28,450 bases of DNA from a virus: IMG/VR virus record IMGVR_UViG_3300021247_000054, positions 1-28,450 of that record. The stretch is one strand, 5' to 3'. A model generated the notes under the pieces. That model saw nothing but the letters and a program-made list of their open reading frames with translations, was not told the DNA's origin and did not search any database. The position numbers were made by a program, and so were the translations under genes. This document shows positions 11,614 through 14,383 of the stretch, one piece after another. The number at the start of each line of letters is the position of its first letter. The stretch's first letter is position 1.

Positions 11614-12078
11614 TTAGGCTACAAGACCCTGAAGATACTGCGTTTTACCAGCCACTTTGGTAGCGGTCAACTCCTGCTTCTTCAGGTTGCTTGGGTCATA
11701 AGAGACATGCACCCAGCCACTGTCAGGGATGCCGGGGGTGTAAAACTCAAGAATGAGTTGTGTGTATTCTAGGTTATCCATGATCCATTGAGCAAGCTCT
11801 GCGTTTGCCACTCCGGGTATCTCAATATCGGCGGCTCGGCCAAGGCAATGGTCTGAGGTCTTTGATCCCCCCACGGCTGAATTTGACTCGGGACTACGGA
11901 ACCCAGAGTTCACCTTGACTCCTTTGCCAAAGTGGTCACGCACGGGCTGGAGAACCTTTTCGCACAACAAGCGCAAAGCTTCGGTCTCGGCTTCCCCGGG
12001 GGTGTTATCAAAGCCCATGCGAAGGGCGGTCTCGGATTTGGTCAGCTCATGCAGGCTGAAGTTGGCGGTCAGATTCAT
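11614..12078 (-). CDS. Endolysin: M15 family peptidoglycan peptidase
   Basis: 154 aa. The fold markers of the zinc peptidase M15 / VanY-like family are present: SGFRSPESN (58-66), SDHCLGRAADIEI (75-87) with zinc ligands H77 and D84, the likely catalytic base E111, and GWVHVSY (121-127) with third ligand H124. Members cut peptide stems in peptidoglycan (DD- or LD-peptidase) and several phages use them as endolysins. There is no signal peptide, so release would depend on a holin. The ATG overlaps the stop of the spanin gene (ATGA), with AAAGG upstream. Neighbouring spanins and holin candidates support lysis. The exact bond cut cannot be read from the sequence. Confidence 0.93.
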   Translation of the reverse strand: MNLTANFSLHELTKSETALRMGFDNTPGEAETEALRLLCEKVLQPVRDHFGKGVKVNSGFRSPESNSAVGGSKTSDHCLGRAADIEIPGVANAELAQWIMDNLEYTQLILEFYTPGIPDSGWVHVSYDPSNLKKQELTATKVAGKTQYLQGLVA

Positions 12079-12542
12079 TTGATACCTTTCTGTGATTCAA
12101 GGGCTTGGTTATACAAACTGATGCAGGCGTTGAGCTTGGTGATGGCTCGGTCGCCTTCTTCTGCTATTGCGAAAAGAGCTTTTCCAAACGCTGGGTCAAG
12201 CTCGGTTCGTGCTTCTCCTCCACCACTTCCTGCGGCAACGGCGGTATCTGAGGTGGCTGGTATGGGGCAGGTCGTTTTGACAGGAACCCGCAGCTTGTAA
12301 GCGCCAGAGTCAATAGCAGCATCGCGCTCTTTTGTGGCAAGTTTGGCTTTCTCATTTGTCTTCCTCAGTGCATCAGCAGTTGTGGTTACGGCAGCAGCCA
12401 GAGCTTTCTCCTTGGCCCGGGCCTCGGTGTTAAGTCGGTCAACCTCAACTTGCTGGGCTTTCTTCTCTTCGCTGCCACCGTACCAGTAGCCCACACCGAA
12501 AGCAATCAGCAGGGCAATCAGGGCCGACAACAGGTTACGCAT
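12075..12542 (-). CDS. Rz-like inner-membrane spanin (i-spanin)
   Basis: I start at ATG 12542 (MRNLLSALIALLIAFGVGYWYGG), which gives 155 aa and an eight-base overlap with the upstream gene; earlier starts read through that gene. Residues 3-22 form one N-terminal membrane anchor, followed by a charged coiled coil (~24-85) in the periplasm. The C-terminal EEGDRAITKLNACISLYNQ is typical of Rz-like spanins. I-spanins join an outer-membrane lipoprotein and fuse inner and outer membranes at the last step of lysis. A second gene, the outer spanin, is completely nested in another frame. Confidence 0.9.
   Translation of the reverse strand: MRNLLSALIALLIAFGVGYWYGGSEEKKAQQVEVDRLNTEARAKEKALAAAVTTTADALRKTNEKAKLATKERDAAIDSGAYKLRVPVKTTCPIPATSDTAVAAGSGGGEARTELDPAFGKALFAIAEEGDRAITKLNACISLYNQALESQKGIK
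12164..12355 (-). CDS. Rz1-like outer-membrane lipoprotein spanin (o-spanin), nested in the i-spanin gene
   Basis: 63 aa in a different frame, wholly inside the i-spanin gene as in lambda Rz/Rz1. MRKPNLPQKSAMLLLTLAL is a signal sequence and LTSC (19-22) is a lipobox, so the mature lipoprotein would start at C22 and be 42 aa. RPAPYQPPQIPPLP (29-42) is the proline-rich stretch usual for Rz1. The ATG is preceded by GAGGAAGACAA, a good ribosome-binding site. Signal, lipobox, proline content, size and site together make this a firm call. It implies a host with an outer membrane. Confidence 0.92.
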   Translation of the reverse strand: MRKPNLPQKSAMLLLTLALTSCGFLSKRPAPYQPPQIPPLPQEVVEEKHEPSLTQRLEKLFSQ

Positions 12543-12864
12543 CGCCGGTCTTCCCACGGACGTAGGCTTGAGCCGCCATGAATGCCACAACAATTGTGCC
12601 CATAGCCGCGCAGTAGGTGGTAGCCAAGCCGTTTAAGGCGTTGACCTTCTCCAAGCTGACAAGCTCAGACGCCAGATAAGCAATCAAAGCAGGTGGGGCG
12701 ATAATCGCAAACCAAGACATGACACGTTGCTGGTCAGCCATCTTGTCCATGTTCTCGATCATCAGCATCCGCTCAGACCGAGCCAGCTCCGCGTCCGTCA
12801 CCACGCCATCGTGGTCGGTGTCAAACTGGTTGTAGGTGGAGTCTTTCTCAAGTTGCTTACTCAT
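12535..12864 (-). CDS. EF-hand membrane protein, holin candidate
   Basis: 109 aa from ATG 12864, six bases after AGGA; a TTG five codons earlier is less likely. Residues 15-26 (DTDHDGVVTDAE) form a complete EF-hand loop with D15, D17, D19, T23 and E26 in the calcium-binding places and G20 at the turn. Two hydrophobic segments follow at ~49-66 and ~79-99. Size, two membrane passes and position beside spanins and endolysin suggest a holin. A calcium-binding loop on a holin is unusual but I recall similar proteins in uncultured aquatic phages. Both calcium binding and pore function are inference. Confidence 0.8.
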   Translation of the reverse strand: MSKQLEKDSTYNQFDTDHDGVVTDAELARSERMLMIENMDKMADQQRVMSWFAIIAPPALIAYLASELVSLEKVNALNGLATTYCAAMGTIVVAFMAAQAYVRGKTGDA

Positions 12865-13033
12865 CTTTTTTCCTTTCAATTTCGCGCTTCAATTCTTCCA
12901 CTTGATGTTGGAGTTTTTCAGTTTTCTCTAGATTCTTTTCGGCCCTTTTGTTGACTGTCAGATTGTCCAGATACACCATTGCCATCAGCGGAAGAAGCAG
13001 GGCAACCAGCACACAAGCGGCAATCCATCCCAT
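12857..13033 (-). CDS. Small membrane-anchored coiled-coil protein in the lysis cassette
   Basis: 58 aa. Residues 3-22 (WIAACVLVALLLPLMAMVYL) form one membrane segment and the remaining 36 residues a charged heptad-type coiled coil (EKTEKLQHQVEELKREIERK). I choose ATG 13033 because it overlaps the upstream stop as TGATG and has GGGGA seven bases before it; a longer reading from 13156 would overlap the upstream gene by 124 bases. The topology (N-terminal anchor, coiled coil) is like a short i-spanin or an antiholin-type regulator, but a true i-spanin is already present next door. Function unknown; membrane role likely. Confidence 0.75.
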   Translation of the reverse strand: MGWIAACVLVALLLPLMAMVYLDNLTVNKRAEKNLEKTEKLQHQVEELKREIERKKDE

Positions 13034-13755
13034 CACGTTTTCCCCAAACGACTTACGAACAGGAACCACAGCCACAGGTAGAGGAGGAATAGCATAGTTA
13101 CTAACAGGTACGCTGACTTTGCTTGGAAGTCTCTTTTTGCCTCCTGCCGTTGCCATTGCTTGACCCTTTCCTTCGCCTCTTCCTTCAGCCTTGCGGCTTC
13201 CTGTTCCTCCTGTATGACGCTACGCATATCAAACACTTTGGAATACAGCGCCCCCATTTCAGGCGGTGACTGATACACCATCGTTTCCCGGATCGTCACT
13301 TCCAGTGCCGCCATCTGGTCTTGAGCCATCACGCGCTTGAGCGCGGCTTCCATCAGGTTGGCGTTGGGGTCGTAGACGTTCTGGCTCTTTTCTTCCTCTT
13401 CCCTTATGTGCGCAGCAAGCTGTTCTTGGAGCTTGAAGAACTCCGTGAGTTGCTTGACCACATCAGCCATGACCTTAGTTTCGTCAACATAGGCCTTCTT
13501 TTTCGCCACAGGCTTGGCCTTGGCTGGCTTTCTTTGAGCAGTCGGTTCATCTCTGCTTGGAGCCTGAAAAAGCTTTCCAAAGAACGCCGCAATTGGGCCA
13601 AGGAATCCCTGAATCTCCTGTACCGCACCAGCAACTTCGTCATAAGTCTCTTTGACTTCAACGAAAGTTTCCTTGGCCTGCTTGTAAAGCTCACACCCTT
13701 CCTTGATGGCAGCAACGCAAGCATTGGCGGCAAAGAGGATGCTAATCGGATCAAT
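13033..13755 (-). CDS. Tail-anchored membrane protein with probable ATT start
   Basis: 240 aa if read from ATT 13755. No ATG, GTG or TTG exists in frame between the upstream stop and GTG 13509, yet the 82 codons in between are clearly protein-like: DPISILFAANACVAAIKEG, an amphipathic helix region, then a basic linker (QRKPAKAKPVAKKKAY). Proteins starting M-DPI followed by such a helix are a recurring phage type. AGAGG sits six bases before the ATT and one base separates the ATT from the upstream TGA. The middle (~85-210) is a helical, charged region; residues ~213-235 (LLVTMLFLLYLWLWFLF) anchor the C-terminus in a membrane. It may aid lysis or act as a membrane regulator. The alternative is a 158-aa protein from GTG 13509. 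Confidence 0.75.
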   Translation of the reverse strand: MDPISILFAANACVAAIKEGCELYKQAKETFVEVKETYDEVAGAVQEIQGFLGPIAAFFGKLFQAPSRDEPTAQRKPAKAKPVAKKKAYVDETKVMADVVKQLTEFFKLQEQLAAHIREEEEKSQNVYDPNANLMEAALKRVMAQDQMAALEVTIRETMVYQSPPEMGALYSKVFDMRSVIQEEQEAARLKEEAKERVKQWQRQEAKRDFQAKSAYLLVTMLFLLYLWLWFLFVSRLGKT

Positions 13756-13766
13756 TTCACACCTCT
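13753..13766 (-). promoter_or_regulatory. Shine-Dalgarno site in front of a putative ATT start codon
   Basis: Read on the minus strand the site is AGAGG, a six-base spacer, then ATT. The AGAGG lies inside the last codons of the upstream gene, whose TGA ends one base before the ATT. The spacing is ideal, the reading frame behind it is the coding one, and the frame opened by the neighbouring GTG at 13760 gives an Arg/Ser-rich shadow. The strong site plus coupling to the upstream stop would be needed to start at a rare codon. Confidence 0.65.
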
Positions 13767-14383
13767 AACAAAGGCAGATTTGCCATGTTGATGCCAGCGT
13801 ATACGTCAACATAGGTGGGTAAAAACTCAACAACAAAACCACCGGGTTTGTTTGCCCAGCACACGGAAGTGCGTTTGAACGGCAGGTCTTTAATTAACTC
13901 TTGCTGCTCAGCAGTCATCTGGTTGAACTTTTGAAAATGATTTGTAACCATTTCTTGATTGGTGGCGTAATCAAATTTTTTCTCTACTTGAACACCATCT
14001 ACTGTTTCAAGTACGTAATACTCAATTGGCTGATTGGTAGTCATGTCAAGCGCAGACCATTTAGTTACGCCTGTAGCGCTCGTGGTGATGTCGTCGTTGC
14101 GGTACCACTCGGTCACCGTGTTTGCTTCTTGGTTTACTTTGACAAAGTACCCATACTTGGTTTTGTCCGTAGCAAAAAATACAAACGAAGCAGCTTTTTT
14201 TGCTGACAGGTCGGATACTGCGTAGGAGTATTTGCACTGCAATTGCACTCCCTTTTGCTCCAGAAATTGCTGCGCGGTTGTTCTGTACTTTGACCCGTTC
14301 AGTAAATCACAAACCATACGAATCTTGTCTGCGTCTTTTGCAAACTCAATGATTTGAGATTCATCAGAACAGACGTAACTCAT
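13757..14383 (-). CDS. Hypothetical protein downstream of the adhesin (208 aa)
   Basis: I do not recognise a family. The protein is mixed alpha/beta with no membrane segment or signal. It begins MSYVCSDESQIIEFAKDADK and has a strand-rich core (ASFVFFATDKTKYGYFVKV, then IEYYVLETVDGV). Its start overlaps the stop of the 69-aa gene (ATGA). It is the last gene before the lysis cassette and its 3' end carries the ribosome-binding site for the ATT-started gene. Sitting just after the fibre and adhesin genes it could be a fibre-assembly chaperone, but nothing in the sequence proves this. Confidence 0.75.
   Translation of the reverse strand: MSYVCSDESQIIEFAKDADKIRMVCDLLNGSKYRTTAQQFLEQKGVQLQCKYSYAVSDLSAKKAASFVFFATDKTKYGYFVKVNQEANTVTEWYRNDDITTSATGVTKWSALDMTTNQPIEYYVLETVDGVQVEKKFDYATNQEMVTNHFQKFNQMTAEQQELIKDLPFKRTSVCWANKPGGFVVEFLPTYVDVYAGINMANLPLLEV

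Follow-up and report, generated by a model that had tools for sequence, protein, structure and literature searches.

A comparison of start codons indicates that ATT, a very rare start codon, opens the gene for a 240-residue membrane protein in the phage DNA analysed here, and that this start is a trait shared across a large family of uncultured aquatic phages, not private to one phage. The window, that is, the whole stretch of 28,450 bases (positions 1 to 28,450 of the IMG/VR record IMGVR_UViG_3300021247_000054), carries the gene directly ahead of those for a 99-residue membrane protein, a holin-like protein, an Rz/Rz1 pair and an M15 endolysin (Table 1). The reading that we moderately favour is that AUU is the true start, a poor and weak one kept by selection and probably fed by ribosomes that end the upstream gene.

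Read along the minus strand, the site consists of AGAGG (13766-13762), TGTGAA (13761-13756), ATT (13755-13753) and GAT (13752-13750). AGG TGT GAA alone stands between the in-frame TAG (13767-13765) and ATT, and the codons after ATT (GAT CCG ATT AGC ATC CTC TTT) encode DPISILF; the stop codon of the frame lies at 13035-13033. A preliminary description, made from the letters of the window alone, had placed ATT six bases past AGAGG and one past TGA, and had found no ATG, GTG or TTG ahead of codon 83. Direct reading of the window bears out both points: between the upstream TAG and codon 83 the ATT frame holds none of these codons, and a canonical start is first reached at GTG 13509, which is codon 83 itself. 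tRNA genes, sought as the source of an odd anticodon, were absent from the 28,450 bases.

Table 1. Features of the ATT start site and of the surrounding genes in the window.
Feature	Position	Strand	Basis
ATT start codon	13753..13755	-	Read directly; kept as ATT/ATC in 118/195 loci, GTG in 44/195
AGAGG, Shine-Dalgarno-like site	13762..13766	-	Read directly; six bases 5' of ATT
TGA, stop of upstream gene	13757..13759	-	Read directly; one base (A, 13756) before ATT
TAG, in-frame upstream limit of ATT frame	13765..13767	-	Read directly
ATT-start gene, 240 aa including start codon, all-helical, one C-terminal hydrophobic segment	13033..13755	-	Translation; AlphaFold2 model
Upstream gene, 208 aa, without known family; stop abuts ATT	13757..14383	-	Sequence, family searches
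Next gene, 99 aa, one hydrophobic segment, charged C-terminus, ATG start	12857..13156	-	Sequence; ATG in 88/93 relatives
Holin-like protein, 109 aa	12535..12864	-	Position and two hydrophobic segments; without family match
Rz-like spanin, from ATG of MRNLL	12075..12539	-	PHROG 1327, E 6.6e-17
Rz1-like lipoprotein	12164..12355	-	PHROG 11621, E 8e-4
Endolysin, Peptidase_M15_3	11614..12078	-	PHROG 894, E 6e-43; Pfam PF08291, E 3e-20

The preliminary description had proposed that the ATT start is genuine and had suggested comparing the start codons of homologues. In a protein scan of IMG/VR, which returned hundreds of relatives, the alignments of the best 80 all begin at the residue that follows the start, and the codon at the start position is ATT in 63, GTG in 17 and ATG in none. 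A DNA pattern for the N-terminal motif with the start codon left open, taken together with the loci from the protein scan, gave 111 distinct sequences, 92 with ATT and 19 with GTG; scans of IMG/VR for ATG, ATA or ATC and for TTG or CTG ahead of the motif found nothing. The set was then widened by a search for distant relatives and by one Betaproteobacteria MAG contig. After removal of duplicates, 195 distinct loci were retained (116 ATT, 2 ATC, 44 GTG and 33 ATG), although near-copies among them mean that such raw counts are not independent events. The ATT figure combines 114 loci with 2 in which the codon lies one position further upstream, and the GTG figure 41 with 3 of the same kind. Within the window's own (DPIS) clade, 94 of the 118 members have ATT, 24 have GTG and none has ATG; the ATG loci are confined to a separate, AT-rich group. 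Over 100 other contigs, drawn from many different metagenomes, have ATT directly ahead of the conserved DPIS, far more than chance would give, and the Betaproteobacteria MAG contig, 46% identical, likewise has ATT, after AGGGG. The comparison thus supports a genuine ATT start.

Several details of this set may be recorded. The two ATC starts belong to relatives L269 and L273 (L numbers denote loci), and in L240 and L258 ATT is apparently one codon further upstream (ATT GTT/GTC GAT). The AT-rich ATG group (L202, L208, L226, L236 and relatives) includes some contigs above 100 kb and has a different setting, mostly without a close upstream gene. The deposited relatives MW202484 and MW202462 have annotated starts that lie 6 and 7 codons into the conserved N-terminus, and several database relatives of the protein are short, as would be produced by gene finders that reject such codons.

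For a single contig, a base error giving a false ATT would be an admissible explanation, and the preliminary description had named it as one that could overturn its claim. The same error could not turn up in over 100 contigs, however, and ATT is found at 114 distinct loci, drawn from dozens of metagenome data sets, as well as in the MAG contig, which leaves an error of sequencing or assembly with a negligible probability. The recurrence points instead to translation that would be deliberately weak. A second reading is initiation at a canonical codon further inside, which in the window is GTG 13509, with the upstream stretch untranslated; this is the choice that gene finders would make, and a downstream start could yield an additional short form. 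The preliminary description had allowed for a native start there while reading the 82 codons ahead of it as protein. That reading of the 82 codons holds, since they are conserved, with an N-terminus kept in all relatives, and would all be dropped by a start at GTG 13509. Moreover, codons 2-43 show pS of 0.456 and pN of 0.066 in the ATT frame (pN/pS 0.146), with the reverse in the other two frames. This synonymous bias indicates purifying selection on these 42 codons and thus translation in the ATT frame from codon 2 onwards. Nor is there a canonical codon at a consistent position downstream of ATT/ATC: the first one falls anywhere from codon 5 to codon 106, and we find an internal start very improbable.

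In a third reading, ribosomes coming from the upstream gene would shift frame or read through its stop, and the residues before DPIS would lie inside the resulting longer product. Isoleucine resembles valine, so the alternation of the two could be that of an ordinary protein position. Against this, the ATT/ATC loci have about 49 different upstream contexts with differing frame relations, an in-frame stop immediately precedes the start codon in 48 of the 118, and a canonical in-frame start further upstream is absent from 116 and present in 2. Isoleucine codons elsewhere in the same genes are ATC (576), ATT (300) and ATA (275), near 2:1:1, unlike the 116 ATT versus 2 ATC at the start position. 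This codon bias appears to be the behaviour of a start codon and not that of an isoleucine codon, and a fusion can be given hardly any credence. Base error, internal start and fusion were accordingly rejected, on contig number, N-terminal selection and the varied upstream contexts and frames, respectively.

The same contexts indicate that ATT travels with its own gene and not with the neighbour. The four start types require 27 changes on a protein tree built with FastTree, where branches with good support demand 13 or more changes of the ATT label; the DPIS clade has 13 changes, all between ATT and GTG. Recombination that swapped the junction may account for some of these changes of start codon. 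ATT is one base away from ATG and two from GTG, which makes the absence of ATG from the clade notable. It bears on a further possibility, that ATT is a true start but near neutral, made good enough by its Shine-Dalgarno (SD) site and inherited without regulatory purpose. The codon does cluster on the tree, and the SD sites at ATT loci are reasonably good (a median of -5.8 kcal/mol and a spacing of mostly 4-7) and about as strong as those at other genes of the same phages; given such ordinary strength, the net initiation rate at ATT could be moderate. Nevertheless, none of the 118 members of the clade has ATG, even though the codon has switched between ATT and GTG 13 times; a survey of bacterial and archaeal genomes counted a change to AUU in only one of 61,358 ancestral AUG starts (PMC5622118); and the GTG forms often add a competing AUG. 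We therefore regard near neutrality as rather unlikely.

The competing AUG takes the form of ATGTG, in which AT precedes the GTG start: it is present at 30 of 41 GTG loci versus 0 of 114 ATT loci. The association holds on the tree, where about 10 of 12 independent pairs fit it and none runs counter to it, and by upstream context, where 7 of 17 carry the motif with 6% expected (p 5e-5). In E. coli, SD spacing decides between the two codons of AUGUG, a longer spacing sending ribosomes to AUG (PMC9841429). The main GTG group has a long spacing, and many of its ribosomes should hence take the wrong frame. By this analogy, the ATT and the ATGTG forms of the site would both be weak. The motif occurs in at least seven unrelated upstream contexts, for example at L002, L016, L040, L231, L245 and L192, and the out-of-frame AUG sometimes opens a very short frame. 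A second conserved protein in that frame was considered and rejected, as the frame stops at varying places. A repressing RNA hairpin at the start was likewise dismissed: the region is structured in absolute energy but not against dinucleotide shuffles.

An upstream frame ends within 12 nt of the start codon, or slightly overlaps it, at 107 of 114 ATT, 35 of 41 GTG and 10 of 33 ATG loci; the association of ATT with coupling is not significant on the tree, and because close gene packing is usual in phages, a tight junction alone is no proof of coupling. Low output might also be wanted simply for stoichiometry, without coupling or the sensing of IF3 as a signal. pcnB and cvfC1 use AUU to limit output (PMC1780047, PMC13009471). 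The junction, which is tight in almost every ATT or GTG locus but seldom in ATG loci, leans to coupling instead, although the contrast is tempered by the ATG group differing in host and setting. Stoichiometry control without coupling is to us a possible but not a likely explanation. A compensation of ATT by a stronger SD site was rejected: the raw difference is strong, but it is confounded by the AT-rich ATG group and is weak after phylogenetic correction. In that group the SD is weak at other genes too, and an upstream gene that ends close by is missing from most of the loci.

The ATT product is predicted to be a tail-anchored helical membrane protein. Its AlphaFold2 model has a mean pLDDT of 83, with a first helix that begins at residue 2 at high confidence. 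Family searches at the default cut-off returned no known family, the best PHROG match being weak and of unknown function; a fold search against the PDB gave no significant match, and neither sequence nor fold matched a holin, antiholin or spanin family. A role in lysis is suggested by the position of the gene. The 99-residue gene begins inside the ATT gene, overlapping its transmembrane-coding end by 124 bases (13033-13156) in a different frame, and comparable overlaps are present in relatives L228 and L231. Gene order is similar in the inspected ATT and GTG relatives (L228, L210 and L231); the inspected ATG relatives have other genomic settings. The Rz1-like gene lies entirely within the Rz-like gene, in another frame. 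The holin-like protein has a perfect-looking EF-hand calcium loop (DTDHDGVVTDAE) ahead of its two hydrophobic segments, and could possibly be a calcium-binding lysis protein.

A general use of ATT starts by these phages was rejected, since the neighbouring genes start with ATG; the trait is thus specific to the ATT gene. In the same loci, the endolysin starts with ATG in 68 of 89, the remainder showing ACN codons that probably mark relatives whose N-terminus is longer; for the p738 tail gene, the start is ATG in 33 and GTG in 2. In five control genes, the inspected cases without ATG are alignment offsets, except for a possible ATA start in one relative of the holin-like gene (L142, minus strand). 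An automatic scan of these loci for more ATT-start families was crude, and its low scorers resembled spurious frames.

In phage T4, gene 26 has an internal AUU start, and the lysis gene of MS2 starts at UUG. The T4 case is one of AUU initiation in a phage, as in the window, although it is an internal start giving a shorter product and not the main start of a conserved family. The lysis gene of MS2 and fr is coupled to coat termination, and close stop-start pairs are often coupled (PMC12548453). It resembles the ATT gene in being a phage gene that has a poor start and depends for translation on a stop upstream of it, coupling in the window being suggested by a stop and a start within a few bases of each other; it differs in belonging to an RNA phage, in its long overlap and in its proven lysis function, whereas the link of the ATT gene to lysis is positional. 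The best-known bacterial case is infC of E. coli, which encodes IF3: its AUU is poorly used and checked by IF3, resulting in autoregulation (PMC5472188). By analogy, repression by IF3 would be expected in the phage gene, which cannot autoregulate in that way as its product is a membrane protein. pcnB of E. coli has an AUU start that limits output, as cited in PMC1780047 and PMC13009471; the scarcity of its protein is likened here to that expected of the phage product, but pcnB is a bacterial housekeeping gene and not a phage family.

The staphylococcal cvfC1 (AUU) and ccpN (AUA) have conserved non-canonical starts with a strong SD and yield about 10% of the output from AUG (PMC13009471). The likeness lies in a non-canonical start shared among relatives together with an SD site. 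In the ATT gene, too, a near-cognate codon is kept, no canonical in-frame codon could stand in for it and the SD lies at a fitting distance; cvfC1, however, is first in its operon, whereas the phage ATT abuts an upstream stop and alternates with GTG among relatives. sigR of Streptomyces, with a GTC start repressed by IF3 (PMC5472188), shares a conserved non-canonical start overlooked by gene finders, and differs in its codon and in encoding a regulatory sigma factor. Ambiguous AUGUG and GUGUG starts (PMC9841429) correspond to the motif of the GTG relatives; the window's own site has ATT without such an overlap of AUG and GUG. Finally, reinitiation declines when IF3 is in excess, an effect that is smaller at sites with an SD (PMC2268962).

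The preliminary description had also suggested that poor initiation could limit the amount of the membrane protein and tie it to IF3 or to coupling, which agrees with the known AUU genes and the tight junction. On this basis, selection for a weak, coupled start would operate as follows. The well-spaced SD would place a ribosome over AUU, largely one just done with the upstream gene. The initiator tRNA would pair poorly there, owing to the third-base mismatch, and IF3 would reject most complexes, so that a small share would start. The outcome would be a low amount of the tail-anchored protein, set relative to the upstream gene, with the holin-like, spanin and endolysin genes alongside keeping normal starts; in GUG relatives, the overlapping out-of-frame AUG would often take over the weakening of the site. 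A bolder proposal is that AUU and AUGUG are interchangeable devices for low, coupling-dependent synthesis, through which the lysis cassette senses IF3 relative to ribosomes and the timing of lysis responds; we consider it speculative and improbable as a whole.

The AUU starts known from experiment are a handful (infC, pcnB, cvfC1). Our results suggest that gene finders limited to ATG, GTG and TTG would cut tens of residues off this protein across the whole family. An AUU kept in more than 100 members and at about 49 junctions, and never replaced by AUG in the main clade, amounts to a natural experiment on the avoidance of a good start, and the phage family offers a clean system for asking whether initiation-factor levels feed into gene expression near lysis.
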